Positions 3,031 to 58,485 of a DNA stretch of 64,000 nucleotides are shown here, one piece after another. A program made the translations under genes and the position numbers. The notes beneath the pieces are model-generated. The model ran no database searches. It saw nothing but the letters and a program-made list of their open reading frames with translations, and was not told where the DNA came from. The DNA lies in assembly GCF_964355755.1 (NCBI RefSeq), contig NC_092675.1:30094912-30158911 (forward strand), read 5' to 3'. The DNA is from Antedon mediterranea (lineage: Eukaryota; Echinodermata; Crinoidea; Comatulida; Antedonidae). Each line of letters begins with the position of its first letter. The first letter of the stretch is position 1.

Positions 3031-3172
3031 GGCTCTGTCTACATTATCAAACTAGTTTGACAAAAAAGTGTGATGTGCCCAAACATGGTAGTGATGTGCC
3101 CCGGTATGTGATATGACATCATGTTCAAATATGGGCACATCACATTTTTTTTATAGTGTAGACGGAGCTTTA
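3031..3172. mobile_element. CTCTGTCTACACTATCAAAC-family MITE, copy 1
   Basis: Short non-autonomous element with terminal inverted repeats GGCTCTGTCTACATTATCAA and ATAGTGTAGACGGAGCTTTA. The interior carries the family words GATGTGCCCA and GGGCACATCACA. Confidence 0.85.
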
Positions 3173-20515: not shown

Positions 20516-20580
20516 AAGGGGGACGTATAATTCTGTGAACCCCAAACACAGTGGTCGCATACCTTTAACTCTATTCCACC

Positions 20581-20652
20581 GACCAGCGTGGGAATCGAAC
20601 CCAGGACATACATGTTGTCAACACGACGCTCAGGCGACTGAGCTAACTGGCC
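20581..20652 (-). tRNA. tRNA-Val(GAC)-like sequence, probably a SINE head or pseudogene
   Basis: On the minus strand 72 nt fold as a full cloverleaf: acceptor GGCCAGT/GCTGGTC, all seven positions paired counting two G-T wobbles; D arm GCTC/GAGC; anticodon loop TTGACAA (anticodon GAC); and T arm with the loop TTCGATT. Box A (TAGCTCAGTCG) and box B (GGTTCGATTCC) are intact. GAC anticodons are not normal for eukaryotic valine tRNAs, and the position beside retroelement debris suggests a tRNA-derived SINE head rather than a working tRNA. Confidence 0.5.
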
Positions 20653-23366: not shown

Positions 23367-26300
23367 ATGACTGACAATATGTGATTATATATTCACAATG
23401 CAATTCCACAGGATCCATGGTAAAAGCATTGACCTTTCACAAGATGATACGTGTGTGAAACGAACGCAAAGCTTTAATTATGGCATCGTGTTTGGCAAAG
23501 TGCCAATCACAGTGGAAGAAAAGGTTACCGTTGAGATTACAGAAACAATTTCGGAATGGAGTGGCGGTTTGCGATACGGGTTCACAAACATTGATCCCGA
23601 TACGCACGATGCGGAGAAACTTCCGCCATACGCTATCCCAAACCTCAGCAGGGAGCCTCAGTACTATTGCGTTGCTCTGAATGAAGCGGACGCCAAGACA
23701 GGGAATCGTTTGTCCTTTTACTTTACCAGTCAATGTACGTGTATATCTTTAGTTAATAATAAACCATCAACTGAGAAAAAAATGGACAAGATAGATGTTA
23801 GCAAACCTGTGTGGTTTGTGATGGATGTGTATGGCTGCACTAAAGGCATCAAGCTCGTTATGTCTGGTAATTCACTTATTTTCTTCTTTTTTGACCATAT
23901 TTAATGAGGGTAATCCATCCAGCAATTGCTAATTATTAGAGTGGAGTTGTAATTTTGTCCTTAGAAAAAAATCATGACACGTGACAGAACTTGAACCCAG
24001 GCTACTCGGAGTGGTAGCCAAGCATCAAGCGTCACCACCAAGCCACAACCCCACTAAGAAAAGATAAACTGTTGCATCATGTTTGTATTTTTCCATTACC
24101 TTATGTATAAATCAATTTTCCTATTAAAACATTTTTAAAACATATCAATTATTAATAATAAATTAATCAAAATGTAACCAATCATTATTACATTGGTAAT
24201 GTTTCAACCAGTGTACAATGATTTGAAAATGTTATTATTACTTTAATCCAAGTGAATTCAAGGGTCTGGAGGTAAGTTTTCAACCTGACCACTTTTTCAC
24301 AGAGGCTTTTGACAACTCGGTGGTTTTTGAACAGAGATTGTTCCTTTATCTTACGAAAACCGCACCACCTTATTTCTCGTGGCTACACCACTGGTCTTTT
24401 GTTATTGCAAATCTGACATCTCAATTTTCTATAGATTCTGAAGCTGCTCCAATAGAGATTTTTGTCAGAGGGCGTGAAGCTATGGAGGCGTTTTTAGTCG
24501 CATCAAGAAAAGGAACTAAACCGGTGTACCGGACCCGTTTGATGTTGGTGGGCCAGGATCGAGTTGGGAAAACGAGCCTGAAAAGATCACTGACAGGTCG
24601 AAGGTATTTTAAATTTAAATTATTAAGTAAATGTTCCATTGTTTAAATATTTGTCCAATTTTCTAGTGAACTATTACAGTAAATCATCGTTGCTGTATAT
24701 TTGTACTGTTTTTACTGAAACGGTATTGATACAGGAAATTACACATACTTCAGCAGCACCTGCCACACCTCAGATCATGTGACCAGCATGAAAAATCGAA
24801 ATTACTTTATCGTTTTTCTTTATATTATAGCTTTTTACTTTTTTTGTTATCTATTGAGATAGTCATTAAGATCTAGCCATTTGTTCAGTAATTTGCCTTT
24901 GGATTATTATTAAATTCACAAATGTATAACAGTTACCACTAGATCTCATATTTCACACAACAAACTGCATGAACAATAAACTGTTGGTCTTGTTGAATAT
25001 ATCATTTAACAAATTTTTCTTTCCCTAACATTTACTCTTTTTATACAATTTAGATATTTAATAACTTGTCACACTTGATTGATTTAACACTTTTCTTTTT
25101 AGCATATTGATTCTTGTTAGTGTTTTGGATGTTTACCCACCGGCTATCTTAGTTCGTCTGTGATTATAGATTTGCGTATACTATATACAGTTATCTTTTG
25201 TTTCTTTATGACATCACAAAGCTTATACAAACAATACATTTTCTTTATGGATTTTAATTTCTATACATTGATTTGTTTTCAAATTAATTTGTACTTGACA
25301 TACATTGTTAATTAATATTTAGGTTTTCATGCATCAAATCCAATTAACATTCCATATCTTCTATACACTGTATAACAATTTATTTATTTTGTTGCTATTA
25401 AACTAAAACAAAATTAAATTGTTTATAAGATCCTTGCCATTTCATTGGTTTATTTTGGTGCGATTCATAATTTTCTCCTATTCCAACGATTGAAGGTACT
25501 ATTGCATGATATTTTGTATTCTGTAATATTTGTTGTGCAACTTGGTAGGTCTTAATATTTCATGACCGACTTGTACAGTAGTGTGTGCCGTCTATTAATC
25601 TACACTTTGCTTCGAGGCCATGATCTGAATGCCAAATTTATGCATGGCCTAGTTTTAGACATTCCATTCAAGATATAAATTAATATAAGGTATAAGATTA
25701 ATTGATTAAAAATTTATGGATTTATATTGTTCTTGAATTAGATGTGTTTTGTTTGAATTTTTGGTAATATTTGAATATTTTTGTTTATTAAAAACCTCTC
25801 CCATTCAAATCAATATAACTTGGTTTTTTGTTTTCAGACATGACGCAAAAGAAGTGAGTACAGATGGAATTGACACTGCCGATATTTGTAAAATTACAAG
25901 TAAAGATTCTAAGCCATGGAAAGTGTATGCAGCAACTAACGAAGATGATCAAGAGACAAAAACATCATCAGGTAAGTTGATAATAATAATAATATTTGTA
26001 CAGAAAAATTACTGATGAATAATTCTAGGAAAAATTGTGTGAAAATTATAATTTTATTATTATTCTGATTGCTTAAAAACTATTAATTTGATGTGTCTGA
26101 GTTTATGCATATATATGTCTATCCATCTATATGTCTATCCATCTATATGTCTATCCATCTACATGTCTATCCATCTATATGTCTATCCATCTACATGTCT
26201 ATCCATCTACATGTCTATCCATCTACATGTCTATCCATCTATATGTCTATCCATCTACATGTCTATCCATCTACATGTCTATCCATCTACATGTCTATCC

Positions 26301-29300
26301 ATCTACATGTCTATCCATCTACATGTCTATCCATCTACATGTCTATCCATCTATATGTCTATCCATCTATATGTCTATCCATCTACATGTCTATCCATCT
26401 ACATGTCTATCCATCTATATGTCTATCCATCTATATGTCTATCCATCTATATGTCTATCCATCTATATGTCTATCCATCTATATGTCTATCCATCTATAT
26501 GTCTATCCATCTATATGTCTATCCATCTATATGTCTATCCATCTATATGTCTATCCATCTATATGTCTATCCATCTATATGTCTATCCATCTACATGTCT
26601 ATCCATCTACATGTCTATCCATCTACATGTCTATCCATCTACATGTCTATATGTCTACATTTCTACAGTATGTGTGTATGTGTATACATGCCTATGTGTC
26701 TAATGTCTTTAAGTCAATGTGTCTACATGTATATATGTTTACATGCCTATGTGTCTAATATCTTTAAGTCAATGTGTCTACATGTATATATGTTTACATG
26801 CCTATGTGTCTAATGTCTTTAAGTCAATGTGTCTACATGTATATATGTTTACATGCCTATGTGTCTGTCTTTAAGTCAATGTGTCTACATGTACAGTATA
26901 TATGTTTACATGCCTATGTGTCTGTCTTTAAGTCAATGTGTCTACATGTATATATGTATACATGCCTATGTGTCTAATGTCTTTAAGTCAAAGTGTCTAC
27001 ATGTATATATGTTTACATGCCTATGTGTCTAATGTCTTTAAGTCAATGTGTCTACATGTGTATATGTTTACATGCCTATGTGTCTAATGTCTTTAAGTCA
27101 ATGTGTCTACATGTATATATGTATACATGCCTATGTGTCTAATGTCTTTAAGTCAATGTGTCTACATGTATATATGTTTACATGCCTATGTGTCTAATAT
27201 CTTTAAGTCAATGTGTCTACATGTATATATGTATACATGCCTATGTGTCTAATGTCTTTAAGTCAATGTGTCTACATGTATATATGTTTACATGCCTATG
27301 TGTCTGTCTATAAGTCAATGATGTGTTTATGTGTTCGCATGCGTCTGTCTATTCGTCTGTGATTACATAAATTATCTATATCAATGTAATAATAAGAATA
27401 AGGCAATTTTAAAAGCTCTTTGTTATTAAAATGTAATGATAACCTTCAATAGGATTGATTCATATTATACTAGTCTATTGTCGTGTTGAGCTAAGTTCCA
27501 TTATGCTTAGGTTTAGCCATGTTTACTTCATTGTATATGCTAACAAAGTCCTACAGTATGTACCATGAATAAAATGATAATTAAGTTAATGGTTATGTAA
27601 GCTGTTTTTGGAACACTACAAACTGAAATTAAAGTATATTTCACATTTGTTTTAATTAATTATAACAGTGAATTTTTATTCATTTGTTTTTTACTGGAAA
27701 TTAACTTATATATGTATAAATGCCCACAATATAATTTAACTGATTTACTTTAAAATTTTTAATTTAAAATTATAATGAATGCAATGTTTCAATGATATAT
27801 TCTCCCCTAGCTTCATATCAGTGCAGTCAAATAAGGTGCTTTTTCCCCTGTTCACTACACTGGCTTTGTGTGTACAACAGATAAGGCAACAGGCCCTATC
27901 CATCCCGAGTTTCATATGCAGTTTATAGGCCTTATTTGATCGTTCTGCCACTAGAAAGTGTGATATGCCCAAATATACTTAGTGATATTGTCTTATGGTA
28001 GTGATATGACACCATCATGCCCATATATGGGCACATCACATTTTTTTGTCACTTAAAGTTTGATAGTACAGTGTAGATAGAGCTTTATGATGTTACTGTA
28101 CACTGTCTTATCTGCTTTGCCACTCTTAAAATATAAATTGTAGTGATAGGAATTGAATGACTACATTCTTGAATAAAGATATTTAATATAATTAATGGTT
28201 ATTGTTTAGATGTACCTTCAGCAGAGGATGAGTTTGCAAGAGCTATTGCTCATAATATCGTGCAAGAGTTGTGGAATAAACGATTACGGAAGAAAAATGA
28301 TGACAACACACAGATGTCAAGTCAAGTCATAAACAAACAACCTAATCAAAACCAGGTTTGTCTTTTTACTTGTCTAGCAAATTCATTTGTCTCTTTACTG
28401 TTAACTTGAATATTTATTTTCTTACTTGCACATTAATGCACTACATTCACTTTTTCTCATACATTATTAATATTTTTACATTTTAAAAGAATTAATATTT
28501 GTGTCTATTTCGTGCCTAGCTTACCTGGATAAACCGATTAATGCCATATTTCTCCTCGAAGAGCGAGATATACTCGAAAAGTAGAAAATTCATTGAATGC
28601 CCCCCCTCTAAATGGTACAGTCCACAATTCACCATCATCATTTCTTTTTGAGAAAGGTTTGTGGACTGTACCATTTAGAGAGAGGGGTGTTCAATGAATT
28701 TTCTACTTTTCAGGTATATCTCGCTCTTCGAGGAGAAATATGGCATTTATCGGTTTATCCAAGTAAGCTAGCATTTATAGACTGCCAACACCATTTCTGG
28801 TTTGTGTAATTATTGTGTTATAAACACTATTTATAGCTTATTGACGGTAATCAACATAATTTCCGTTTTATTTCAAATTTTCGCAGTCACATACTGTAAA
28901 TAGAAAAATATAATTTGTAAATATATACTGTACATGTATACATTGAACATTACTGTGCAAAACATGGGCTGGCCGTATTACTGTATGCAGCTGAGCTAAT
29001 TTATTTATTAAATGTTGTAATAGTGGAATACTATTATTTATAGCTTTTTGTGGTTAAACATATTGACAGTAATAGTTGATGTCTTCATGTTTTGTGAAAC
29101 TAATAAATAAAATAATACATTTAAAGGTTACATAACTGGTAGTAGTTAGCTATCAGTCAATAGCTAATCGAATATACATAAACTTTGACTTGATATTTAC
29201 AGTAAAAGCAAAAGACATAAAACAAAATCAATATTCATATAGAATTATTTTTTTTTGCAAAGTGAGTTGCTAAAAATTTTGGCTTAATTTTCCGATTAAA

Positions 29301-32021
29301 AACTGGCAAATGGAAGACCAATCAAATTAATAGCTTAATTATATACGTTACCATAGCAATGGTAGTGGTATAATTTTAACCCTGAATTGTCTGTCATGTT
29401 TGTAAAGAACACTTGCAATTTACTCTGCATGCAGATGCATAATTTATTCGATAGAGATGCTGTGTGCGAATTGAGACTAAAAAGCACAATGTGAACTGAG
29501 CTAGGTGGGGTGGTGTCTATTTTTGTGATTAATTTATCTTTGTTGATATGATTTTTTTAACAGTAAGTTTCATCAAAATAGGATTACATAACCTACCAAA
29601 TACAGTATAGACAAGCTGAGTTAAAAATTTTAATTGTATTAAGTCATGCTTAAATATTTTATATAATTCACTAGATATTATAGTGATGCCAATATGAACA
29701 TTAATTTTTTTTAGTACATTTTCACACAAGGATAATATAAGATTCCGTTCTCGTGCTGATAAGCTCTCTGCACCACAGTGGTGTATGAATGAGTAGGTGA
29801 ATTTTGACTGTCATATAATATGATTGAGAGATGTGATGTAGACATGACATGACATGACATGACATGACATGACATGTGATGTAGACATGATACAGTATTC
29901 CATGGTTTTTTATTGTGAATCACGTTTGGAGCAGATTGATGCAATAATTTCCTCTGCGATAAATTTAAAATACATGCAACATCAGTAATGAAGTAAAATG
30001 CTTCAAAAATATTGTCTGGTTTTATAATCAATTTGCATAATTTACATAAAAGTAAAATACAATACTGTACATGCAAATTTACCTAACTTTGCATTTGCAT
30101 AAAGTTATTAAGATCCTCATAAATTATTTTATAGGCCTACGTATAAAAATTGATCATTTTTTAACATTGTTATTATTTTATTATTATAGCGGAATACAAT
30201 ACACTCACTGATAACAAAACAACTCTCAAATGTCAGCTGACATTTATAGAAACAAGATTTTGTTTTCTCGGTTTGCATTCTGTTATTTCTATTTTAGTAT
30301 CTTTGTTGTTCGGTACAATATAGTAGCTTTGTGGGAGACATGTATTGATTTTCTTTTTGTTGAGTAAGAAATCCAAGCTAGACATTAGAAAGTAGTTACA
30401 GAGAGTTGTTGCTACATGGCAACTCAAGTGTAGGCTTTTTATATGATAATTAACAACAGTATAATATGCAAATTAAGAATGAATCAGGTATTAACTTTAG
30501 ACTGTCATTAGAAGGTTTCACATTTCGGTGTAAAAGATTCTTATTTTATTATCACTGGACAGAATTTTAATAATTGTCCCTCAAGCTAACAAAAATAAAC
30601 AATATAAAATCCAATGAATTTTCTTTACACAATTTACAAAACATTAATAAATACAATTTAATTTTCTTTCTCCACTTTGAGGCCTTTTATTGGAACATAG
30701 TTGTTTATTTATTTTCTTGGCAATTTTTATTTTATACTTATATTAATGTACATGAACGACACTGAAAGTGTTAATTCAATTAAAAAAACAGAAATACTGT
30801 AAATCAAATAAATTTAAAAAAAATATAAGCTAGGTGTGTTTAATCATACATTTTTAATAACCAACCATAGATCAAATAGGTTCTACAAATTGTCTATTTT
30901 TGTTTTTATTTCAGAACCAAACAAAGGAAGGTAAAGAAGAAAGCAAAATATCAACTATGGTAATTTTTATTTTATATGATACTGATTTATCTTGTTGACT
31001 ACCAAATCTAGTTATGGTTTTTACCAGGCTACTGTGAGCTATGTCTTAAACTTTATTGGTAAAAAATGTAAGATAGTCAGATTACATTTTCAGTCTTCTC
31101 CTGTGAGTTCTGTTTTGTGAAACTCTTATTGGGTAACTTACTACACTATCAAACGTTGTGACAAAAAATGTGATCCATATATGGACATGATGATGTCATA
31201 TCTCTACCATATTTTGTCAAACTAGTTTGGTAATGTAGACAGAGCTTTAAAGTGCTGGAGAATGGAACAGTGGCCGTTGTTCCTCTGCATCCTTTTGCAT
31301 TTACCTTTTGGTTAATTATAGGATATTGTTTGGATTCTTATTTTTGTGTATAATAACTATTATTATTATTATTATTAACATCAAAATAATGTAATGCTGT
31401 AACTGTAAATGTTCTTTTTCTGGCAGGAGGAATCATTTACGGGTCAAGCTGATGCAAGGAACAAAACAAAATTAGTAATGAATGACATCACCGAGCAGGT
31501 GAAAGAAGCTGTTGGTCAAGAACTTGTTGATCGAGTCTTGACAATGGTGAGTGAGATGCTAAAAAAACTTGAGAGTGGTCAAGAGGTCATCGAAGTAAGC
31601 AAAACTGAGCAACAAGAAATAATGATGAGTATCTGGGATTTTGCTGGTCAAAGTGTCTATTACACAACTCATCAAGTATTTTTGACAACAAGAGCGATTT
31701 ACATCATCGTTTTTAACTTGACCCATGACCTTAACAGCCAAGCTATCGTACAAGTTCGCCGTGGAGAAGGCCACAGTAATGTGAGTAGGTTTTAATGTCA
31801 TTAGTATCATGTAGGTTGCTGTAGTGAGGTTTTTCATTTCCACTACTGTAGGTGAATGCATTGGTATGAATCTTAAGGATCAGATTATGCACATGTGTAT
31901 TCATATCTCCTTCCAATTTTCTTTTTGCAACGAATTATAGTTCTTGGAATTTGATTCAACAAAATTAGTAATTAGTTTCTTACAGGTTTCACATTAGGTG
32001 CTTTACAGTATAAATCAAGAA

Positions 32022-32058
<37 letters not shown>

Positions 32059-35000
32059 TTTTGCAAAGCAAATTGTGCAATCAATCACAACTCAGGAAAT
32101 GAATTATGATTAATTAATCATAAAAGGTCTGCAGGCATGTTAGGCTATTCATTCTTTGTGGTAGAAAATAATAGAGTAGCATGATTTTTCCTATGCAAAA
32201 ACTTTGGTTTCGCACAAATTAATTTGTTAATGTTGCAATCTTTATGATTGTCTGCAAGTATTTTTATTTGATAAATATTCTTTACAATGTTAATCAATAA
32301 ATTTGGGGTTTTTTCAGATTGAATGGAAAAAAAGTGAACTTACAAATATAGACTTCATCAATTTTTGGATAAACTCGATTCACACACACACGGCAGAATC
32401 TGGAGCTAGCGCGCCATATGACAACAATGATCCGTACAACACAACATCACTTTCACCTTCTGTGTTCTTAGTCGGAACACATCGAGCTAGTCTAAGTGAC
32501 GACAAGGAGACCCAGTGGAAGATTGTTAGTAACTTTATTTTATCAAATTGTTTATAAAAAATAATATTTTAGTAAATTAAGTTCACTTAAGTTCAAAACA
32601 GGTACTCTAAAGCTCTATATCTACATTATCAAACTAATTTGAAAACAATTGTATGATGTGCCTAAATATGGCAGTGATATCCCCAAATATGGTAGTGATA
32701 TGCTTAAATATGGGAGTGACATGACATCATCTTTGTCCGTATATGGGCACATCACATTTTTTTGTCGCATAAAGTTTGATAGTGTAGACAGAGCTTTAGA
32801 CTTGCTATTTTAATTTGGTGACATCAAATGCACAAAAAAGAATATTTCGTTCACTACATTTTCAGGTAAAAGAGAAGTTTAAAGTTATTGCTGAAAGTTT
32901 TCGAGACAAGGTGTACAGAGGTCATTTTGTGGGTCAATTCTATGCTGTTGAGAATAATATTGATGACGAAGAAGATGAACAGGTAGAATATCAGTTACAT
33001 TTATTATCTTATTGCTAATCATTGTTGTATTTACGACCTATCTGATGACAGTATTCATTTCATTAATGATGTTTAGGTATATTTTTTATCTAAATGACCT
33101 TTAAAGCCTCATTAGCAGGCCTTTTGTTAGTTGGTTCTTTTATTGTTATATGTCTATTTGCAAAAAGTAATAAACGCCATCAATGTTCATTTTATTGTTC
33201 CTCATAAAGTAAAAAAAAAAAGATCATAAGAAAAAACCTTGTTACAGTGTGTGGAATCTAAAGTAAGCCAAAAAAGGCTTTAAGGCTGAGTTTTCAAAAG
33301 ACATCAAATTATTATATGTTTTGGTTTTTTATCATTATTTTATTTAATTTTTCTGTTGTCTTCATTATTTGAATGTGTGAAGAATAAAATTGTTCTGCAA
33401 ATTATTGATATTTTGACTAAATATTTATTTTGTAGGTGAAGTTGCTACGGAAACACATAGTAAGCATAGCATCTAAAGAGCGTTACATGGGTGAACACAT
33501 GCCGGTGTCGTGGCTGCAGTTTGAGCAACAAGTTGCAGAGATGATTGCCAGAGGGATTAACTTTATACCTATAGATCAGGTATTAAATAAATTAGATTAA
33601 CTCCCAACTGATCAACCAATTTTACACCAATTGACAAACATATGGTAGTAATACCGTATGCCTAATTATGGTAGTGATATGATGTCATCGTGTCCATATA
33701 TAGGCACATCACATTTTTTTGTCATATAAAGTTTGATAGTGTAGACAGAGCTTAAGTTGACCGCATGTGCCTATACAGATAGACACATTTTATCGAAAAT
33801 TGTACTTCCAGTATAAGAATTGTTTTTATTTTATCATCTTTTTTATTAGGGAAAAGATATCTGCTCTAGATTTGGCATAGAAGAGGATCTACATTCCATG
33901 TTACACTTTTATCATGATCTTGGCGTTATCATCTATTACGGACAAAGTGGTGCAGTTGATGAATCATTGCGCAATACTATCATACTAAAGCCACAGTGGC
34001 TAATTGATGTTTTTAAGGGAGTTATCACAACTAAAGACATTGACGGACAAGTAAGACTAATAGCATTTTGTTTTTGTGTTGAAATAATACTATCAATATA
34101 TATTTTCAAAATTTGTTTCATTCCTTTCAGTGGAACGAAAAGTATTGAACACTGGGGAGAAACAAACGCTGTAAACTATTGTTAAAGTCTCCAACTCTAG
34201 ATAAACAAACAGTCTGTCACATGTCTACCATGTTTTAATTTACCCACCTAACTGACAACAAATAGTCTTACATCTTGTTACAATACATAAATCCTTCTGG
34301 ATAATTGTTTGGTTTTATTAGAAAATTGATTAGGGAAGTTTGAAATAGATGAACAACATATTGTTGCATAATTTAGGTATTAAATTAAATTTAACTCCAA
34401 ACTGATCAACCAATTTTACACCAATTGACAAACATAAGAAAATTTAAGATTACTTAGTTTTCTCTTTTTACACCAATTGGCAAACAATTAAGAATGATTA
34501 ACGTTACTTATGTTTCGCTTTGTTGAGAATTCTTGATGACAACTCTGGTGGAGGTGAGAAATAAAAGAAACACCAACGCACACTCTTCTGTATAATTATC
34601 CTTCCTAAATCTCTGTCCACACTATCAAACCAGTTTGACAAGTGTGATTTGCCCCAATATGGTATATTGTTACAATACATAAATCCTTCTGGATAATTGT
34701 TTGGTTTTATTAGAAAATTGATTAGGGAAGTTTGAAATAGATGAACAACATATTGTTGCATAATTTAGTTTGATCACGTTACCACCTCTATTTGTTTTTT
34801 TTTTCAGTGGGAAAGGTTTGCTGAAGCATGGCACCGCTTAGACAAAGAAGGAATTCTGGAAGACTCACTTATCAACCACATGTGGTGTACGATAATTGCT
34901 CAGAAGCCAACCCTCATTGGCCTCATGAGCAAGTTTGATCTGCTCTGTGAGAGAATCAAGCCAAAGGTATGAGTTTGTACTTTTCACTGTGTTTAGCCCA

Positions 35001-38000
35001 GCTAGCATACACAAACATTGTTGTGTAATAAAGAACTATGAAGTAACCAAGTTTTATTTTTATTTTTGGTTACACATCTGATAAACATTATTGTGTTTTG
35101 TACATCAGTTTAAAAAGAAAGTCTTAAAGTGAACACAATAAAATGATAACAGTGTAAAGCACTTTCTTCTTGTTTTTTTTCTAGACACTGAAGTCAACTG
35201 ATAAATGGGAGAAGAGTTACTTTGTGCCATCGCGGCTTAAGGACTCAGTGGATCCTAACGATGTCTATGAACCATCCAACAAGGACATTGTCTTCTACAT
35301 CACCTTTGGGGGCTTCCTACCAGGTCAGTTCTAGTCAACAAATTCAATTGTCATGTTCTCATATTGAGTAGATTAGGATTTTAAAATAAATACGTTTACA
35401 GATTGTGAATGGCCAACAGCACTCTATCTCAACTACCCTACAAATGTTTATAATTTCACTTTACGCCATTCAAAAGCAGATACTATAGATACTTATATAC
35501 ATTCCTTTTATATTACTGTAAGTAAGATAATCTTTAAAAGTGCCTCGTAGATATTAACTAATATTTCTTTCTATAGATGGACTTTTCCAAAGAATCATGA
35601 CACGAGCCGTTCGTTGGTCACAGGAGCAAGGAGGACATGAACCAAAGCTCTACTACAGACAGGCACGCTTCTATGTTGACGATGAGCATGATCTCATCCT
35701 CCAGATGGCGCCCTTCAGATATGCCTGCATAAAGGTATAGGTAGCATTTTAGTGTCCTTAACCAATATTAACATGACGTTATAAAATGTAAAAAGTGTTA
35801 ACGCATTATTTTTATTATTTAGGTAATAGTATCAGAGGTTGAAATCTTAGATGATAGTGATGGCAGCACACATGCTGGTGAGTCTTCAGTAGAAGTGCTT
35901 AAGGTCCAAGAGCGACATCAGGTGGCATGCTCTAAGGTCCGCCACTTCCTTGAGTTCACCCTCTCTGAATTGCGACAACTGTGGATAAAACGAGTGAAAT
36001 TCACTTTCTCTGTTGCGTGCCCGTGCAATAAGACATGTGAGCTTCATGGCAAGCCTGGATGCAAAGAGGAATCATGCCGCCATTTTTTGAGTCTTGATGA
36101 ATGTCTGGCAACAAACATCATTACTTGTGACCATCGACGCATCAAGACTACCAAGTACAAGAGGTGGTTTCCAACTGACAAACCAGCTCCTTGTAAGTTG
36201 CTTCTTAATGATTTTTAGAAAATACAGTCAACTCTCTGGACACTTTTGGCTGAAACCTAATATGTCTGGTTTTCTGGAAATTCTGGTATTTGGAATGTGT
36301 TTTTAATGGTAAAAATTAATTTTTTTTTTTTTTTTTTTATTTTTTTATTTCATACTCATCCAACAGCGAGTAACCCGCCAATTACAGGATGGATAAACTA
36401 TTTAAAATTTCACAAGACAAACATATACACAAGATGCTCTACATAAACAAAGACTTATTATTAAGTCTTTGGGAGTGGAGTTGTAAATTGTCATGAGAAA
36501 AAAACCCTGACATATGACAGGCCTTGAACCCAGGACCCTTAGATTGGTAGCCAAGCATCATAACCACCAAGCCACAGCTCCACTCCAATTTGAGACCTTT
36601 TAAGAAAAGTCTGGTTTTGGAAGAGTTTCCAGTTTCCAAAGTATTGGAAGAGTTGACTGTATATACAAATTGAGTGACTTGGCCAGGATCCAAAGACAAT
36701 ATTCAAATGCATCAATGTTATTTTACAATACAATTTCGTCTAAACAAAGGCATTGTCAGCAGTTTTCCATACAATTGAAAATTGTAATGTTTGAACTCTA
36801 CTGTACTATGAAAACTGTCTATTGAATGTTCCCTATTTTTTATAGTGTCTGTACCAGCCCGAGCACCAATATCCAATGAGAAAGACAAAGAAGAGCAGCT
36901 TCCTGATTGGATCAAAGCAGCAGCAAAGCTTCTTAACGCTGGCCCAAGTGGTAGAGACTGGAAGGCGTTGGCAATCATGCTAGGTAATACATCATTGGGA
37001 GCAACCTTTAGAACCTCTTTCTAATTTAAACCTGTTATTAGTAACTACACGTTTGTGTACACAAACTACTGTATACTATAGGTTAAACTTTGCAATAATT
37101 TGTGAACACCTTTTATCTAAGAAAAGTGAAATTTTATCGTTTTATGTCACATTAGATGTTTTCGTTTTTGCAGTGTGTGGTGAAGGAAATGGTACCATGG
37201 CATTAACCAGCAAAGATCATTGATATTGGAACAATTTCCAAAATGTGTCTTGTAATATTTGTAACTTTTCTTGTGTTGTAGGCTACAAGCGTGTAAAGGT
37301 AGATAACTTCTCTGATGAGGTGAATCCAGCACAGGAGTTGATTCTAGACTGGATCTACAGTAGTGGGAACACTAACCTTTCTGTAGACATGATGTTGTCA
37401 TACCTTGAACAGATGCAGAGAGAAGATGTCATTGAGGTCATCCACAAGGCAGAAGGTTTGACCTCTTTAATAAGACTTTTTTACATATAGAACTTAATAG
37501 TACGCCTAATAAGTTTATTATCGGTTCCTAACAATCATGCATTAATAGAACTACTAATGAAGAAAGGCGGACTTGAAGCAAATTTTACTATGAAGAACAG
37601 CCTCTGAGCCCATAAGTAGGCTACACACATACCAGCTAGCTTCTGGCAAAGTTGATACCACCTCTACATTGAATTCAGACATGTATCCTCAAAGAAAATT
37701 GCAATACTATGGTTGAAAATCTACCTTATATATTAACCAATCAGATGTTGTAAATTTAAACATGTGGTATATAGTATCTTGTATTCATCTTTCAGGGTCT
37801 AACGCACCACCACCCTCGGTATTCATCAGCTACAACTGGGGAATCCAGGATTCTGTTAAGCAGTTACGCGATCGGATTGAGAGGGCGGGCTTTAGTTGTT
37901 GGATGGATATCGGTCAAATGGGAGGTGGAGATAGCTTATATGCAAAGATTGATAGTGGTATGAGGAATGCCAAGGTATAATGAACTTTGTAATGTCCTGT

Positions 38001-39163
38001 ACTTCTAAACTGAAAATGACAATAATGACATGATCTGTTTGCCCAATACAAATTTCAATATATTTTTATTTATTCAAAAAAGCCTCCAGAAATAGAGATA
38101 TATTAATATTACAAAACAAAAGCAACACATTACTATACATTTAGAAAGCTTGCTATATAAATGGCACATTTATTTAACAGATTGTCTGTTTTATGCAGGT
38201 TATTCTGTGCTGCATCACACCAAAGTACATTACGTCTGAAGTTTGTAATCGTGAAGTCAGCCTAGCAGACCTTCTTAAGAAGCCTATTATCCCCATTATG
38301 TTTGATGCAGTGCCTTGGCCTCCACCTGGAGGCATGGGCCTAGCATTTGCTAGGCTCTTATATGTGCAAATGAAAGGTAGCAATTTGTTAACGCTTTTGT
38401 ATATAATTCTAACATCAAACACTATTTATGACATCTCAACACTTCACTTTTTGTTGTGAACTGTGTATTGCTGAAAAAAGGGCACTTAAGATGCTAAAAG
38501 TTTTTAAAGCCACACTGCAGCCCTTCAAAATCTAGCACGCCCCAAATTTTGGCCGCTGCCCATAGTTTGCAGACCATTGTATTATACATATACATACTCT
38601 AATGCTCTGTCTACACTATCAAACTTTATGTGACAAAATATGTTGTGGCCATATATGGAGATGATGATGTCATATCAGTACTACTTGGGAATATAATATA
38701 CCATATTTGGGCACATCACACTTTTTTTTGTCAAACTTGTTTGATAGTGTAGACAGAGCTTGAGAATTGAAATAAACACAATAGTGAAGGTTCAGTATTT
38801 CAACATTTATATTTCATTGTTATTGTTTATTTTAAATTTAATTGTTAATAATTGTCTGAAATGATTGTCTTAGGTGTTGGTGGTCATGGTGGATCTGGTG
38901 CGCAATCTGACCTTGAGCTTAAGTATCATGATGTCATCAACCGTATTAGAATACACTGTCAACCAAAACAAACCGACGGTATCGTGAATGTCAACAGCAC
39001 AAAATCAAGTGATAAAACATTATCACATGATACAATATCAAGAAATAGAGGCGGGAGATCAGTGAGTAGCAGTGACCAGAGTCTGCAGAGGCAAGGCAGG
39101 TCAACTTCAGCGCAGCTACCGAGGTCAGGGGTTAGGAATTGTTTAGTATGTGCAATATTATAA
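23367..39163 (+). CDS. NHR-Roc-COR-Death-TIR protein (Roco family), complete, 1256 aa
   Basis: CDS exons: 23398-23866, 24435-24603, 25838-25971, 28210-28355, 30915-30959, 31427-31780, 32318-32524, 32866-32982, 33436-33579, 33850-34050, 34808-34966, 35185-35323, 35577-35734, 35823-36192, 36846-36983, 37282-37455, 37796-37974, 38199-38376, 38874-39163. They total 3771 nt and stay in frame to the TAA. Exon 1 has a 5' splice acceptor before the ATG and an upstream in-frame stop, so a 5' UTR exon exists. Domains: Neuralized (about 1-156), Roc GTPase (about 186-505), COR (about 509-820), a Cys/His-rich stretch (880-918), Death (about 955-1040), TIR (about 1048-1160), then a Ser-rich tail. No kinase, leucine-rich repeats, signal peptide or membrane segment. 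Roco proteins dimerise through COR; Death and TIR domains recruit signalling partners. An intracellular immune or death-signalling scaffold is inferred. Confidence 0.88.
23398..23866 (+). other. Neuralized homology repeat (NHR) exon of the Roc-COR gene
   Basis: One exon encodes a whole NHR, residues 1-156. It opens [20 protein letters not shown], continues with [30 protein letters not shown] and LPPYAIPNL, and ends with [18 protein letters not shown]. This is the Neuralized beta-sandwich pattern (H-x2-G-x-x-I-x-L, R-x-x-S-F-x-x-G-I, W-x-G-x-L-R-x-G-F). NHR domains bind protein partners, for example Delta in Neuralized. The donor leaves phase 1. Encoding in one exon suggests gain by exon shuffling. 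Confidence 0.85.
23940..24056 (-). mobile_element. tRNA-derived SINE, copy 1 (intron 1 of the Roc-COR gene)
   Basis: On the minus strand GTGGGGTTGTGGCTTGGTGG (box A-like) is followed by TAGCCTGGGTTCAAG (box B-like), then TCTAAGGAC...CAACTCCAC. It shares its layout with 36471-36588. Confidence 0.65.
24807..24905. repeat. Dispersed repeat CTTTATCGTTTT...CAGTAATTTGCCTTTGGAT (copy a)
   Basis: Shares ACTTTATCGTTTT at the start, GAGATAGTCATTAAGATCTA in the middle and TCAGTAATTTGCCTTTGGAT at the end with the repeat at 63765-63873. Confidence 0.6.
26113..26650. repeat. 16-bp minisatellite, about 33 copies
   Basis: Perfect to near-perfect units of ATGTCTATCCATCTAT or ATGTCTATCCATCTAC. The period is 16, not a multiple of three, and no unit has a stop in any frame, so all three plus frames stay open and encode the same 16-residue cycle. 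It lies in intron 3 of the Roc-COR gene and is not coding. Confidence 0.95.
26660..27320. repeat. About 55-bp minisatellite, about 12 copies
   Basis: Units contain TCTTTAAGTCAATGTGTCTA, then CATGTATATATG and TTTACATGCCTATGTGTC. It directly follows the 16-bp array. Some units lack the AATG of TCTAATGTCT. Confidence 0.9.
27956..28086. mobile_element. MITE family copy 4 (left end lost)
   Basis: Contains GTGATATGCCCAAATATACT, GGGCACATCACATTTTTTTG and the right end GTGTAGATAGAGCTTTA. Confidence 0.8.
28516..28771. mobile_element. 256-bp foldback element
   Basis: Long terminal inverted repeats of about 100 bp: CTAGCTTACCTGGATAAACC at the left and GGTTTATCCAAGTAAGCTAG at the right. The homology runs inward through TATTTCTCCTCGAAGAGCGA and TCTAAATGGTACAGTCCACA around a 40-bp loop. 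There is no coding content. Confidence 0.85.
29840..29876. repeat. ACATG pentanucleotide repeat
   Basis: About seven copies of ACATG, flanked on both sides by TGTGATGTAGACATGA. Confidence 0.9.
31141..31250. mobile_element. MITE family copy 5
   Basis: CTACACTATCAAACGTTGTG at the left and TAATGTAGACAGAGCTTTA at the right, shortened interior. Confidence 0.8.
32609..32798. mobile_element. MITE family copy 6
   Basis: AAAGCTCTATATCTACATTA at the left, TAGTGTAGACAGAGCTTTA at the right. The internal AAATATGGYAGTGAYATG word is triplicated. Confidence 0.85.
33640..33754. mobile_element. MITE family copy 7 (left end lost)
   Basis: Interior TATGGTAGTGATATGATGTC and right end GATAGTGTAGACAGAGCTTA. Confidence 0.8.
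34278..34768. repeat. Direct repeat pair of about 99 bp around MITE remnant 8
   Basis: Segment 34278-34376 (TTACAATACATAAATCCTTC to TTGTTGCATAATTTAG) recurs at 34670-34768. A truncated MITE left end (34608-34664, CTCTGTCCACACTATCAAAC) lies immediately before the second copy. The sequence ACTGATCAACCAATTTTACA is also shared between about 33606 and about 34398. Confidence 0.85.
36226..36663. mobile_element. Pogo-like MITE interrupted by a tRNA-derived SINE
   Basis: Ends TACAGTCAACTCTCTGGACA (left) and GGAAGAGTTGACTGTATA (right) are inverted repeats. The interior pairs GTCTGGTTTTCTGG and GTCTGGTTTTGGAAG. A SINE occupies 36471-36588. Confidence 0.6.
36471..36588 (-). mobile_element. tRNA-derived SINE, copy 2
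   Basis: On the minus strand: GGAGTGGAGCTGTGGCTTGG, then TGGTTATGATGCTTGGC and CTGGGTTCAAGGCC (box B). The end CAACTCCACTCCC mirrors the start. Same family as 23940-24056. Confidence 0.7.
36846..37455 (+). other. Death-domain exons (15-16)
   Basis: Two exons encode about 85 residues rich in amphipathic helices: [13 protein letters not shown], then [53 protein letters not shown] and a final IHKAE. The pattern D-W-K-x-L-A-x-x-L-G-Y...I-L-D-W and a last helix R-E-D-V-I-E fits a Death domain. Intron 15 splits the G-Y pair. Confidence 0.75.
37796..38376 (+). other. TIR-domain exons (17-18)
   Basis: Exon 17 starts with [20 protein letters not shown] (strand A and helix A), then [20 protein letters not shown] (BB-loop side, residues 1073-1092). 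Exon 18 continues [20 protein letters not shown], then [19 protein letters not shown] and a final ARLLYVQM. The CWMDI-x-QMGGGD and WPPPGGM words are typical of an invertebrate TIR group often fused to Roc-COR or Death modules. No Glu is visible in the [10 protein letters not shown] segment, where NADase TIRs carry the catalytic one. Confidence 0.85.
38600..38762. mobile_element. MITE family copy 9
   Basis: GCTCTGTCTACACTATCAAA at the left and TTTGATAGTGTAGACAGAGC at the right; last intron of the Roc-COR gene. Confidence 0.85.
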
Positions 39164-42938: not shown

Positions 42939-45900
42939 TTAACGTTGCCACACTCTGACGGACTTGACCTGCATGGCTGCGTCCTCGCCATTGTTAGTAT
43001 CAGGGTTCCAAGTTGGGTACCATTTGTCTTTAGCCAACCAGAAGTCCTTTGCTGCAGTCGGCGAGTTGTTGTTCCACGGTTTAGGATATGGAGAATTTAT
43101 GTCCCAGTCGCTAAAGTATGCGGTGCCTCCAACAGCCACGTTCATGACGATGTAGAACTATAATAAACGCAATAATGAATATTAAAGATGTATTGTCCCC
43201 CAAAAACATGAAAAATGAAGATTAATTAAATCAGACTTTGAATACGTTATTGTGTAGTTTTAATCAAGTTAATCACTTCAATAGAAAAAAACCGGGAAAA
43301 AAAATCACGTTTTCACCTATAAAATGACAAAATAAATGGTAAAATTCAACCAAAAATCTATTGGCTGGCAGCCAATTTGACCATTTTTTGCTTTAAATTA
43401 CACTTTTTCAGGTAAATACATTTTTTTTCGATCCATTTTTTTGTGAATAACTATTATGTTATATTAAAATGGAATATTTAACAATATTTTTTTTAATAAT
43501 AATTTTTTCAGGGGTACAATACATCTTTAATTAAGCATTAAATAATATACATGCTTTGATTGAAACCGGTACTGTGACAATATTTAAGTTTACCTGTTGG
43601 TCGAATGGTACCAGTTTGCCTTTACTGTGTTGCCATGGATTGTCGATACCTGGAGCGTTCTGTGAAAATTCACCAAGATTCCAGAATCCCTCACTTCCTG
43701 GATCAACATCCAGAATCAACTCATCATCAACATAAAACCTGAAATAACAAATCTATCAAGTATTAGGCCTATACATTTTTAACGAGAAATATCGAACCGC
43801 CATTCACAATCAATGTCTTAATATTATTTTTACCACCGACGTCATCGTAATTGGCTTCATAATTGTCGTCTTTGTAATCCGTCATCGTAATTGTCGTCAT
43901 TGTAACTGCCGTCATCGTAATTACCGCTGTCGTCAGTGACAAACTGCATTACTTTACTAAAACTAGTAATTTTGTGTAATAATCTTTGAACACAAGTATC
44001 AATTATAACCGAGAACGGGATTCACTACTTTTCTAATTGAGTCTCGTAATCATAGTTCGAATCTAGCCTTTCGAAATTGCATCTCAGTCATCATCTACAT
44101 TGATATTATTTATCGTCCTCGGTTTTCTATCGCTCACCATACTGATACCATTGTTTTTGACATGCTCCGAAAATGCGTTCTGTCATTGTCGTATGCACGT
44201 CGTACATTGAACATCCATGTCGTCATCAGTTTGGTCGTTTGTACTAAAATCGTAATTTCCTTGTTGCTGGTGGCATCAGCCACCATATTGGATGGAGTAT
44301 TGACTTACTGCATCTTGTCAGCTGTCCACTCCATGGCGTATTTATGGAAAGAATCTCCGAATGTACCGCTAGACAACCGTCTAAAATAGAATAGTTTCTT
44401 TGTCAACTATATTTAGATGTGAACAAAAGTCGTAGAATGAATTAAGAATGCTTGAATAGTTTGAAATATTAAGTAATTTCATGTTGGTTTCATTCTTACT
44501 TTGTAGCATGTGTTCTGGGATATCCATTCAATGGCCAGAAAGGACCCCAATGAAGCGTGGATCCCATCATTTGTACGCCGACATCGTTGCCATGGTAGTC
44601 TTTCAAATTCTTATTTCCTATTATTCAACAAAATTGATTTTGTTTGATTGTACATAAAAACACTGTTAATATATTTTGAAACGCAATATGACTGAAATAA
44701 GAAATAAATAAATGAGAAACAAATTTCATTGTTAAGATAATTACTGTAATGTTTTCAGATCCTTTCATTTTCTTAAGCTCTGTCGACACTATCAAACTTT
44801 ATGTGACAACAAAAATGTGATGTGCCCATATATGGACATGATGATGTCGTATCACTAGCATATTATTTGGGCACATCACATTTTTTTGTCAAACTAGTGT
44901 GATAGTGTAAACAGAGCTTAAAAGTGAAATAATGTTATAGGTTATAAGATTATGCAATAACACTTTTTACTACCTCTTGATTCAATAAGATCAATCTCTC
45001 CAGATGCTGGCCAACCTCCGTAGGAATTGTGCTTTGGCAGCAACCAGATAGCTAAGAAGAATGTTAAAAGTTACAAATCAACTTTATTTAGAAATATGTT
45101 TTGATATTTGTCTAGGACTAGGCCTATGTGATAATCACCATCAATGTACAGTGCTAAATGTCGATTTGTCACTATTCCAGGTTGTAACACTTCCCAAAAT
45201 CTACTTAGATTATGCCTAGGTATAATGAATGGGATGGGAGTCTTGAATAAGTGAACTGAATGTCTACAAATGTTAACACCTATTTTCTAAGGCAATACCA
45301 AAAAATAAACATTTCAGGAATTGAAGCAGTGGACCGTAACACACATTGTATTTTTAGAGGATAAAATAAATAACATTTTCAAGGACATACCTGGCCAAAT
45401 CCAATCACCAGTTGGCATCTTCGCTTCAACTTCCAATCGGCCGTAAGTGAAGGAAAATGAATTTACAGTTCTAATTCTAGCAGATTGGATTGGGTTGATG
45501 TAGTTGGTGTCGCTACCGCCACGCTCACACCCATAGTAACTGTTTCCGGTACACTTATCAGCCGGTGATGCTCCTAATTATCATAAAGTAGAGACCTATA
45601 TATTATAACGTCAAACTGTATGAACAGAAATATGTAAATTATCAGTTTATTGCGTCAATCTCCAATATGAATTAAGTAAGTAAGTAGTTCTACTTAATAC
45701 TTATATATACTGGTATATAGTCTGGATTCCAGGCGGAGTTTTGTCTTAATATTAGTAAAAAGATAAATATTTTGGCACCTACGGCGTTTCATACGTATAC
45801 TACAACTAAATAAAAAAAGTCAATACTTGGCAGTGCATAACCATGGCATAACTAAGTTTACTCAACTTACCCCAGAGGTTTAAAACGCCGGTGCTTAAAA

Positions 45901-48900
45901 ATCCATCACCAAACATATCTTCCGTTAATGTCTAATAATGAAGAATAAATCGACAATGCTTGCAATCATTACGTCACAATAGTTAGGCCTATATTTATTA
46001 CATTCGTTTGTGCATGCATGCATTTTCTGGATTTATTTCTTGTTTAATTTTCGAAATGTACTTTAATCCTACAAATCATAAAAGTGACGGAAGTAATTCA
46101 AAAACCGAAACGATGCATTTTATACGTAAAATATATATTCAAGTGTGTGTTCTAACTTACTGGCTTGATGAATAGTGTACCATCTCGCACGTAACTGTTT
46201 GTACGGTTGTTGTCATAGTATTGAAATTCCCAATTCTACAAAAAAAAAAAAAAACATTAAATAGTCGTATTCATTTTGAATAATCAACTTGTTGTTCCTC
46301 ATTTTATATTCAATAATGAATAAATCGAAAGACTGATATTTATTGTAATCAATTGTTCCCCGAGCCTGATGACTCGGTGTTAGTATATTGAAAAGCAAAA
46401 TACAGAAATGAAAAACTTATGAATAAATTTAAATATATTTATCTTAATTCATGGCATATTTAAGTGCAACTAAATTAAAATTTTAACCAAAAAAAAGAGG
46501 AATTACCCCTCCTCCACCTGCAGTAATTTCGTGTTCCCATGTATCCAGATCAAATGTTTTAAAATCGTCTTCAAAGATCAATGTTCCTAAATAAAAAAAA
46601 TGCTTATATAAATCATAATTTATAAAAACAACAACAGAACAAGAAGAAGAAGAAAAAAACCTCGTCGATTCGCATTTTTGTGTTGTGATTTACATAAATT
46701 TGCATATTATTGGTTTGGAGACGCTTTAGTACTGCGTTACAGAGCGTGGATTTTAGTCACGCTCGAGATCAGGGGAGGCGGCTGCTTACCTTGTGCACGT
46801 ACTAATTTGTTACTGAATAAATGAGTTGGTTTACTGTAGTTTAGTGTAGTGCATGTTGTTTTATTGTGGCTAATGTTTTTGGGACGTCACATCAAAAAAA
46901 AGAAACCTCATTTACACTGGCTGTTGTTGCCAATACACAGTGATACATCATTTAAATGATAGTATAGTCTTTGAAATAGAAAATTAACCAACAAATGCAA
47001 CCTTTGTTTATTCAATAAAACAATAATACTAGATTGCAATAATTATCATTTTTACTTTACCCGGTGGTGCAACAGTACCAGGATTTGGTGCTGCCGTCTG
47101 AGGTGTGTTGTCTCCATCTCCGGGACTTGGTGCTGATGTAGTCTGAGGTTTAGGCGGATCACTTACTACAATTAAAAGAGAAGCCGGCTGTGAACATCAT
47201 GCTACATGAAACATGATCTCTTTGCTATGCCAATACAATTGTTGACTGGAAAATCAGCTATCAGTTACTACTGCATCAGAATGTTTTAAAAGTTTCTATT
47301 TTTGTAGAAGTTTGATTTTTAGTTTATTAATCTTGATATTAATAAACGATCGCTGAATAAACATTAGGCGCATTTATTCTCTCTGATCCAGCTGTGTGTG
47401 AGTGATTAGTTAGGTGGAATTTAGGTCTGTCCCGGTGTGGTTACTTTTTATGATAATAGAATAACTATTTAACTGCTAATGATTCAATTTATAGTTATTA
47501 ACGACTATAGTGATAACTTTTGTTTAGAATTTCGACAGTCGGTATAGTTTCAATTAATGCATTACATACTAGAGAGGTATAACTGGTCAGATTATTCTAA
47601 AATGAAAGTAGGCCTATACATAAACAAAGCAATATACCTGGTGGTGAAACCGTAGTGACGTCATCTCCATCACCAGGATTTGGCGCTGAAGTTGGAGGTG
47701 CCGGTCCAGACGTAACTGCTATAAGGGATAAAGCATTTATTACGATACATATTTTGATATAAAAAACGTTAAACTTCTTGGGCTTAGAAAATATAACATA
47801 AAAACTATTTTATCCCTATTCCACAACCGACACATACTCTAATCGAACATACAGGACAGTTGATCAAATCATGGAAACAAATATGGACTTGTTTGGAAAC
47901 TACCAGGTGGTGAAACATTTGAGTTGTGTAAAAAATAATTAATAATAACCTTTTTTTAGGTTAACCATATTGTTGTGGAAGTGCACATGAAAATTTAAAA
48001 AGTATAAGTTTAATATTACCTTTCCAAGACAAATTGAGTTCTTGGTATCCAAATCCATTATAAAGTACATAAAGCCAGTAATTAACCACGTCTCCCTCCT
48101 TGATTACGACATTATTGTTTTCATGAACCCAATAACCATCTAGTTTAGGACAAGGTAAAAAACGAATAAAACATGATTACAAAAAACTCAAAAAAACACG
48201 CACAATTCAAATAATACGGTTATACAAAGGCATAAGTATAAAGTATGAACTTTATTATTCGTCAAGCGAATTACTGACGACACTAAACACTTTTCTTCAT
48301 TTTTATACAAAACAACTAAAACATAGAGTTATTAATTAAGGACTTACTTGTGGGATAATTAACGTCAAAGTTCCAATCTCCTGCACTTACTCCTGGTAGT
48401 GGCTTGTTAACGCTGTAGTGTACAGCGAACAGATTTATACCTGCCTCATCTGACAATTAAACATAATTGTAATCATGGGGTTGTTTTCATTCTCACAGAT
48501 TTACTCATCTTCATCTTTAAATCATTTTTAATATAGACCTATCACTACAGACAATATAGACCAAATATTTTTCAAGAGTATAAGTGTATATAGGAAATGG
48601 TTAAGGTATTGTTAAAGTGTTGTATATTGTACACATCATTGGGCAGTTTCTTGGTTTTGCAGGTTAAATGTATAAAGTACCTCTCTCCCTCTCATTCATT
48701 ATTATATGCAGCAATGACCATACATGTCAGTAAAATATTTATTCAAAATGGAAAAAGAAAAACTCAAAATCAACATCAACAATGCTGAAATAAATTAAAG
48801 TTTAAACGATAAAAACAAAAAAGCTTATGAAAAGGGGAAAAAATGTACCATCTTTTAATGAAACTATGCACACAAAATACACACATACCTGGTATTGAAA

Positions 48901-49003
48901 TCCTTAGCCCTTGTGAGGATAGCAATGACAATTGAGCGGGAGGAAGGGTGTAGGCTGAAACTGATGCCAGGACTAAGACCACTAAAGCAATTTGTCTCTC
49001 CAT
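42939..49003 (-). CDS. Secreted CBM39-GH16 beta-1,3-glucanase / beta-glucan recognition protein, complete, 517 aa
   Basis: Exons on the minus strand: 49003-48889, 48449-48348, 48139-48020, 47718-47638, 47165-47061, 46586-46507, 46235-46161, 45931-45871, 45573-45391, 45051-44974, 44617-44500, 44380-44309, 43738-43594, 43157-42939. They total 1554 nt in frame. The start MERQIALVVLVLASVSAY is a signal peptide; the upstream ATG at 49028-49030 would precede the predicted TATA-driven start site. CBM39 is at about 20-112 (AGDWNFDVNYP, GYWVHENNNVV, VVNYWLYVLYNGFGYQ), a Pro-rich linker at 113-174, and GH16 at 175-517 with catalytic E326-I-D328-L-I-E331. The active site is intact, so it should cleave beta-1,3-glucan rather than only bind it, unlike catalytically dead insect GNBPs. 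A digestive or antifungal/antibacterial recognition role is inferred. Confidence 0.92.
44773..44922. mobile_element. MITE family copy 10 (GH16 intron)
   Basis: TTAAGCTCTGTCGACACTAT at the left, ATAGTGTAAACAGAGCTTAA at the right. Confidence 0.85.
47061..47718 (-). other. Duplicated Pro-rich linker exons
   Basis: Exons 47638-47718 (81 nt) and 47061-47165 (105 nt) are both phase 1-1 and encode related linkers: APNPGDGDDVTT and APSPGDGDNTPQT followed by APNPGTVAPP. They join CBM39 to GH16 and look like a tandem exon duplication. Confidence 0.75.
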
Positions 49004-49038
49004 CCTCGAAGGTTTACCAGAGTCACTCAAACATATGG

Positions 49039-49046
49039 CTTATATA
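49039..49046 (-). promoter_or_regulatory. TATA box of the CBM39-GH16 gene
   Basis: TATATAAG on the minus strand. A start site about 30 nt on would fall near 49016, leaving a short leader before the ATG at 49001-49003 and excluding the ATG at 49028-49030. Confidence 0.55.
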
Positions 49047-57400: not shown

Positions 57401-57651
57401 AACATATAGTGCAATTTTATTCTATTTTCTAGTTCTATATCGTTATGAACGTAGCTGTTGGAGGCACAAATTATTTCAGTGACAGTTTTACGAACGGCGA
57501 TTATCCCAAACCGTGGAACAACAACTCTCCGACTGCACCAAAGGACTTCTGGAATGCTAAAGACTCCTGGTACAAAACTTGGCACCCTACTGAAAACAAT
57601 GGCGAGGGCGCAGCCATGCAGATCGATTACGTCAAAGTGTGGTCGCTTTAA
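54482..57651 (+). CDS. Secreted GH16 beta-1,3-glucanase, complete, 357 aa
   Basis: Exons: 54482-54530, 54668-54750, 54930-55004, 55300-55360, 55507-55689, 55829-55906, 56281-56398, 56665-56730, 56980-57121, 57433-57651; total 1074 nt in frame. The signal peptide MLAKLATFICFLAVVTG is followed directly by the GH16 fold (ETLIFEDNFDTFNLDVWEHE). Catalytic residues are E169-I-D171-I-M-E174. Other landmarks are STLHWGPFWP and FYIVMNVAVGG near the C-terminus. It should hydrolyse internal beta-1,3-glucan bonds (laminarin or fungal/algal glucan) outside the cell. It is a paralogue of the minus-strand gene: exon lengths 75, 61, 183, 78, 118 and 219 are identical, but it lacks CBM39 and the linker. The stop is TAA, with AATAAA 160 nt downstream. 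Confidence 0.93.
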
Positions 57652-58361: not shown

Positions 58362-58485
58362 TTAAGCTCTGTCTACACTATCAAACTTTATGTGAAGTGC
58401 CCATATATGCCCATGATGATGTCATATCACTACTATATGTGGGCAAATCACTACAAACTAGTTTGATAGTGTAGACAGAGCCTTA
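58362..58485. mobile_element. MITE family copy 11
   Basis: TTAAGCTCTGTCTACACTAT at the left, ATAGTGTAGACAGAGCCTTA at the right; interior shortened. Confidence 0.85.

Follow-up and report, generated by a model that had tools for sequence, protein, structure and literature searches.

The window analysed here, a stretch of 64,000 nucleotides from the crinoid Antedon mediterranea (assembly GCF_964355755.1, contig NC_092675.1, positions 30,094,912 to 30,158,911 of the forward strand), carries a gene whose predicted protein joins a Neuralized (NHR), a Roc, a COR, a Death and a TIR domain. By this predicted architecture it is a Roco protein, with Roc followed directly by COR, and since all five domains stand in one chain it falls into a Neuralized-headed Roc-COR-Death-TIR class that is already in print. 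We give about even chances to the reading that the gene encodes a cytoplasmic animal signalling platform of the Roco family, in which a membrane-tethered molecule would assemble Death and TIR domains under the control of Roc-COR.

Gene model and domain composition

The exons were rebuilt by eye from the raw sequence, with the end points and totals of a preliminary description of this DNA known, and were joined by script. The gene lies on the forward strand, as do all of its features given below, and runs from an ATG at 23398 to a TAA at 39163 through 19 exons (3771 nt including the stop, 1256 residues). All 18 introns are GT-AG, and the joined exons contain a single, terminal stop in the coding frame versus 67 and 130 stops in the other two frames. 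Splice sites were scored leave-one-out against 968 GT and 796 AG decoys from the gene span, and 13 of the 18 donors and 15 of the 18 acceptors fell in the top 6% of the decoy ranking. Besides those of intron 7, considered below, the sites outside this range were the donors of introns 6 (14%), 15 (10%), 13 (8%) and 18 (7%) and the acceptors of introns 18 (12%) and 1 (9%). The donor of exon 1 ranked in the top 1.2%, and the coding frame runs on over the phase-1 intron that follows. The preliminary description had joined 19 exons in frame into one gene of 1256 residues, and the rebuilt model agrees with it; at the level of the sequence, one gene with one frame through 19 exons is confirmed. A tblastn search with the protein gave no second copy of the gene in the window (four matches outside the gene, E ≥ 1.7). 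The signals AATAAA or ATTAAA are present in several introns, and neither was found within 35386-38770, the stretch with the COR-Death and Death-TIR introns.

Coding exon 1 (23398..23866) holds the start codon, which immediately precedes the Neuralized domain, and the entire domain. The bases 23367..23397 are probably the 5' untranslated part of this exon, with an acceptor at 23366/23367 that outscored all 796 decoys and an upstream donor candidate at 22952 (CAT/GTAAGT, score 9.0). Because all three frames stop within 18 bases after it, this acceptor cannot bring a coding exon onto the Neuralized exon.

In a Pfam scan of the joined protein (E limit 0.01), Neuralized, Roc, COR-A, Death and TIR_2 were all above the Pfam cut-offs and in the order previously described, so that NHR and TIR were both detected by the profile searches that had been proposed as a check. 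The Neuralized match (PF07177, 2.6e-33, residues 3-154) was accompanied by end-to-end phmmer alignments with the "Protein neuralized" chains 2yue and 4kg0 of the PDB (7.2e-27 and 7.5e-27). Roc was matched at 4e-15 in two stretches, the best being residues 377-422, and a Ras match (4.8e-7) coincided with it. Exon 2 (24435..24603) comprises a linker and the Roc P-loop GQDRVGKTS (residues 196-204, 24551..24577), which aligned with the P-loop of 4wnr, and exon 3 (25838..25971) the switch I region. A long insertion in exons 3-6 separates the P-loop from the G3 motif; exon 4 (28210..28355), without a domain match, and exon 5 (30915..30959), which has 15 codons and whose skipping would preserve the frame, belong to it. 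Exon 6 (31427..31780) encodes the helix before switch II, then G3 (WDFAGQ, residues 391-396, 31634..31651) and the next strand, and was also found by the genome-wide Roc search (G000:C6:30126503-30126646). Both nucleotide-binding motifs of Roco proteins, G1 and G3, are thus present. The second half of Roc is in exon 7 (32318..32524), with the G4 region GTHRAS (residues 492-497, 32474..32491), and Roc ends in exon 8 (32866..32982) with FYAVEN.

COR-A (3e-17, residues 570-730) begins in exon 9 (33436..33579), continues through exons 10 (33850..34050) and 11 (34808..34966) and ends in exon 12 (35185..35323), where the putative COR-B (residues 752-908) begins. COR-B, below its cut-off, is placed in exon 13 (35577..35734) also by similarity to paralogues and ends in exon 14 (35823..36192), which continues into a Cys/His-rich segment, CPCNKTC...CDH (residues 880-919, 36018..36137), a possible metal site. 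Against the PDB, the Roc-COR part matched 4wnr (9.5e-18), 3dpu (1.5e-11) and LRRK2 (3.2e-10), the first two of which we take to be MbRoco2 and CtRoco. Exons 15 (36846..36983) and 16 (37282..37455) encode the two halves of the Death domain (1.7e-8, residues 965-1039), whose match in the PDB was a TNFRSF16 (p75NTR) chain (6e-8). The two halves of the TIR domain (TIR_2, 7.1e-22, residues 1050-1160) follow in exon 17 (37796..37974), with FISYNW, and exon 18 (38199..38376). Neither leucine-rich repeats nor a kinase were among the Pfam matches, as previously described, and an NLR-type or STAND receptor was rejected because no NACHT or NB-ARC match was found at the same limit.

Exon 19 (38874..39163) carries a Ser/Arg-rich tail that closes in CAIL (residues 1253-1256, 39149..39160) before the stop codon, a CaaX-type prenylation motif (Cys-aliphatic-aliphatic-X). 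The strict pattern occurs at 8 of the 2016 six-frame open reading frame (ORF) ends (≥20 aa) of the window, CAIL included. In the literature, CAIL is named as the CaaX box of Cdc42 in yeast (PMC11304957) and as a valid farnesyltransferase (FT) motif in vitro (PMC1175975). The box probably lets the protein sit at the membrane.

The G4 region lacks its usual Asp. This residue is the consensus for guanine specificity and does not define the Roco family. Decay of the GTPase was considered as a cause and rejected, since the two paralogues whose G4 could be read, L041 and L042, have GTHRES, also without the Asp. In CtRoco the nucleotide-free form is dimeric and the GTP form mainly monomeric (PMC6337361), and therefore it should not be assumed that GTP makes dimers.

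Relatives in the genome and in print

The genome of A. mediterranea was searched (354,431,138 bases in 18 contigs, the window being C6:30094912-30158911). These searches give the best candidates only, and genome-wide statements cover the matches listed: at least 128 for Roc, at least 19 for Neuralized and at least 69 for TIR_2. The counts are lower bounds because a paralogue at C3:37.71 Mb (L041) is absent from the Roc list. Among the matches listed, the window gene is, by eye, the only Roc match within 20 kb of a TIR_2 match and the only pair of Neuralized and Roc within 20 kb on the same strand; at C6:30.54-30.55 Mb a Neuralized and a Roc match lie about 12 kb apart on opposite strands.

Parts of the chain recur elsewhere in the genome with other neighbours, both the Roc-COR-Death core and the Death-TIR tail. 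The gene at C3:37.71 Mb (L041/L040, G000:C3:37703001-37717000, minus strand) has at least two Macro-like exons (1.1e-6 and 1.6e-4) before a Roc that was identified by tblastn to the window protein, its P-loop exon alone reaching 0.01 in Pfam, below the cut-off. COR-A (3.5e-9), a Cys-rich stretch and Death (1.7e-9) follow, and no TIR match was found in about 4.5 kb downstream. A locus at C3:7.21 Mb likewise shows COR matches, a Cys-rich stretch and Death (3.5e-12). By eye, a Cys-rich stretch after COR is found in L040, L042 and L043. Residues ~718-815 of the COR-B region are 43% identical to L041 and 39% to L043. The tail is represented by a gene at C11:5.646 Mb (L039, G000:C11:5640001-5648000) with Death (4.1e-11), TIR_2 (4.8e-18) and a second TIR. 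It belongs to a tandem group with TIR matches starting at 5616392, 5628113, 5645994 and 5662501, and the Death-TIR-TIR layout was read in this one of the four genes. Its first TIR is the closest among the matches listed to the window TIR (61.3% over 119 columns); the identity is 31.6% over 76 columns to AbTIR and 19-25% to the ten highest-ranked TIR_2 matches of the genome. A Neuralized-like stretch at C4:125588-126043 shares 38% identity with the window NHR. Judging from the recurrence of its core and its tail, the window protein probably arose by shuffling. The window gene and L041 share the residue and the phase (2) at which exon 2 ends, and this common boundary suggests a possible exchange of heads.

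Two further observations concern contig C11. One ORF upstream in L039 weakly matches an adaptin-type profile (0.0016, below cut-off), and another looks coiled-coil-like. Two Roc arrays, at 4574278-4687354 and 17546311-17602884, contain many frames of about 950-990 codons that appear to be intronless Roco genes, with COR parts 24-27% identical to the window protein.

Comparable combinations have been described in other animals. "Novel Gene 3" of sea anemones consists of kinase, SH3, Roc/COR, Death and TIR (van der Burg et al. 2016, PMC5094078), and shares Roc-COR, Death and TIR with the window protein but has kinase and SH3 instead of Neuralized. According to the same paper, the combination most like Novel Gene 3 is found in the centipede Strigamia maritima and the oyster Crassostrea gigas, where "neuralized" replaces kinase and SH3; the purple sea urchin has a less similar combination. 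Like the window protein, the proteins of oyster and centipede are Neuralized-headed; the likeness is one of description, as the text has no domain-by-domain listing, and it is our reading of one sentence (PMC5094078) that Roc, COR and Death are all present in them. ROCO domains were reported in Aplysia for two TLR-like proteins, two MyD88-like proteins and a further TIR protein, and the legend of Fig. 6 on TIR/COR proteins labels NHR, ROC, COR, Death and TIR, the same five as here, although the legend text does not give the make-up of each protein (PMC9334734).

The DAPK1 group resembles the window protein in having Roc-COR and Death without leucine-rich repeats, whereas DAPK1 has a kinase before Roc-COR (PMC6337361), the place that Neuralized occupies here. 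A proposal in the literature (PMC8195603) concerns prokaryotic conflict systems in which the C-terminal domains attached to AP-GTPase-COR vary, and the likeness to these is in logic, not in membership. Single-protein queries, which find close relatives only, gave no relative of the whole protein in viral contigs (19 pattern matches) and none of the TIR in prokaryote genomes (57 pattern matches). MyD88 has Death followed by TIR, as in the window protein; to our knowledge MyD88 has neither Roc-COR nor NHR, and DAPK1 has no TIR. What is added here to the printed record is the missing G4 Asp common to paralogues, the Macro-headed and Death-TIR-TIR paralogues, the shared exon-2 boundary and the CaaX tail, the last as judged from a limited search of the open-access literature.

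Possible functions of the protein

The TIR domain was compared with the PDB, where 14 sequences matched at E of 10 or less. Four bacterial-type TIRs lead the list (3.0e-6 to 5.5e-6), one of them named NAD(+) hydrolase AbTIR in its record; NADase activity is known for the other relatives of the bacterial and SARM1 sort as well. Cat1 (0.0029) and SARM1 (0.003-0.023) come next, the only Toll-type matches are two chains of Toll-receptor-related 2 (0.11 and 0.13), and the remaining four range over 0.29-0.52, TcpB among them. No chain named MyD88 was among the 14. By sequence, the predicted TIR thus resembles the TIRs of bacteria, Cat1 and SARM1 more closely than those of the Toll type. Its Ser1053, Asp1079 and Glu1120 (38253..38255) align with S140, D167 and E208 of AbTir, mutations of which inhibited the NADase, while it differs at R151 (Lys), V193 (Cys) and W204 (Val1116, 38241-38243), where Ala mutants of AbTir lost activity (PMC11374754). 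W204A inhibited AbTir, yet the equivalent change left TcpC active (PMC11374754). The Trp of WxxxE, which is Val in the window TIR, is Asn in the nearest paralogue. The control was the ten highest-ranked TIR_2 matches of the same genome, which carry a SEWC(N/Y)FE motif and which we take to be Toll-receptor-like. Glu, Asp and Trp were present in all ten of them, Lys in eight and Ser in two. Glu and Asp are therefore no diagnosis of an enzyme, and as proof of NADase activity they were rejected. There were also PADLOC matches to TIR-type defence proteins. The NCBIfam matches numbered three, two of them to anti-phage families, and all three were far below cut-off.

In the platform reading, the Neuralized head would bind a partner, and Roc-COR, as in its relatives, would shift conformation and oligomeric state with the bound nucleotide. 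Death and TIR domains of neighbouring molecules would thereby be brought together, nucleating an assembly that may recruit downstream Death and TIR proteins, as MyD88 does, while the CAIL box would hold the protein at the membrane. The immune role proposed in the preliminary description remains an inference. Several observations weigh against the platform reading or against single links in it. Intron 7 has the weakest splice sites of the gene (donor 19%, acceptor 25%), and COR-B remains sub-threshold (E 0.0066, 16.7 bits versus a cut-off of 27, and 21.5 versus 27 for the segment alone). The missing G4 Asp makes a guanine switch uncertain, and the comparison with MyD88 is weakened because the best TIR matches are not of the Toll kind. 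A CAIL end requires exon 19 to be the last exon, and the coding part of this exon contains internal candidate donors, which score at most 4.4. As to the exchange of heads, exon 2 of L041 has a start that fits phase 1, the phase found in the window gene, and its acceptor is ambiguous. The preliminary description stood in its gene model, its five domains and their order, but not in three of its terms. The chain it called "unusual" has a matching combination in print for oyster and centipede (PMC5094078) and the same labels in the Aplysia legend (PMC9334734); its "GTP-switched dimeriser" runs opposite to CtRoco (PMC6337361) and lacks the usual G4 Asp; and its "immune-adaptor" TIR is not closest to the Toll type.

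Instead of a scaffold, the TIR could be an enzyme: Roc-COR and Death would gather the TIRs, and cleavage of NAD+ would lead to cell death or a nucleotide signal, as in SARM1 or bacterial TIR defence. The bacterial and SARM1-type relatives speak for this, as do the PADLOC matches and the three aligned residues, of which Ser is rare in the Toll-like controls. On the other hand, Glu and Asp do not discriminate, and the window TIR differs at three further positions that mattered in AbTir. We regard an active enzyme as possible but doubtful. The protein might also be a regulator of trafficking or ubiquitin-related processes, as Neuralized proteins are, with Death and TIR as structural adaptors only and without an immune role. 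The end-to-end alignment of the NHR and its similarity to the stretch on C4 would fit this; however, no RING was among the Pfam matches, the rest of the protein is built like Death- and TIR-bearing paralogues, and glucan-recognition-type genes lie nearby, which is weak context. This explanation appears improbable.

The whole NHR lies in exon 1, and its connection to Roc therefore depends on the splice junction and on comparisons with related genes. Two or more genes, for example an NHR protein and then a Roc-COR-Death-TIR protein, could possibly have been fused by the model, as there is a Met in frame in exon 2 (residue 173) and the acceptor of intron 1 is only in the top 9%. This is very unlikely, and two separate genes were rejected, because matching combinations in oyster and centipede are in print (PMC5094078), the donor of exon 1 is usable and the frame continues through the phase-1 intron, and L041, too, has likely coding (Macro) exons before its equivalent of exon 2. 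A more far-reaching proposal, to which we likewise give a low probability, is a membrane-anchored immune executioner. In it the Neuralized head would sense a ligand, a Roc-COR of altered nucleotide specificity would cluster the prenyl-tethered molecule, and a SARM1-like TIR would destroy NAD+. The heads (Neuralized and Macro in this crinoid, kinase-SH3 in sea anemones) would have been swapped at one phase-1 intron before a constant Roc-COR-Death core, yielding a receptor family assembled by exon shuffling, with GTPases where NLRs have ATPases.

Surroundings and significance of the gene

Intron 3 of the window gene contains long tandem repeat arrays (26104-27320) of 16-bp and then 55-bp units. 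Short elements with inverted ends AAGCTCTGTCTACACTATCAAAC / GTTTGATAGTGTAGACAGAGCTT (≤3 mismatches), several of them in introns of the gene, probably form a family of miniature inverted-repeat transposable elements; probable copies are at 3030-3170, 4720, 31225, 32774, 33731, 34608, 38602-38761, 44775-44919, 58364-58483 and 60905. A transfer RNA match at 20580-20652 on the minus strand (37.8 bits, above the Rfam gathering score) is possibly the head of a short interspersed element. Downstream, two divergent genes about 5.6 kb apart, at 43534-49039 (minus) and 54646-57648 (plus), look like beta-1,3-glucan-binding/GH16 proteins. Pieces of the former matched CBM39 (6.1e-18) and GH16 (6.2e-6), and those of the latter resemble it visibly, but joining them with X yielded no Pfam match. 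At 58554-63419 (minus) lie several open frames, among them a repeat-containing one of 569 aa, none with a Pfam match, and none of the 20 neighbouring ORFs in the window had one.

Based on the results of this study, a complete gene model on a large contig is available for an animal class that joins a Parkinson-type Roco GTPase to Death and TIR signalling. The class appears to be little studied, as judged from the open-access literature, which lacks most subscription papers. The window gene and its paralogues suggest where heads and tails were swapped while the core stayed the same. An active TIR would mean that animals possess a GTPase-gated counterpart to SARM1 and to the bacterial Roco conflict systems that have been proposed.

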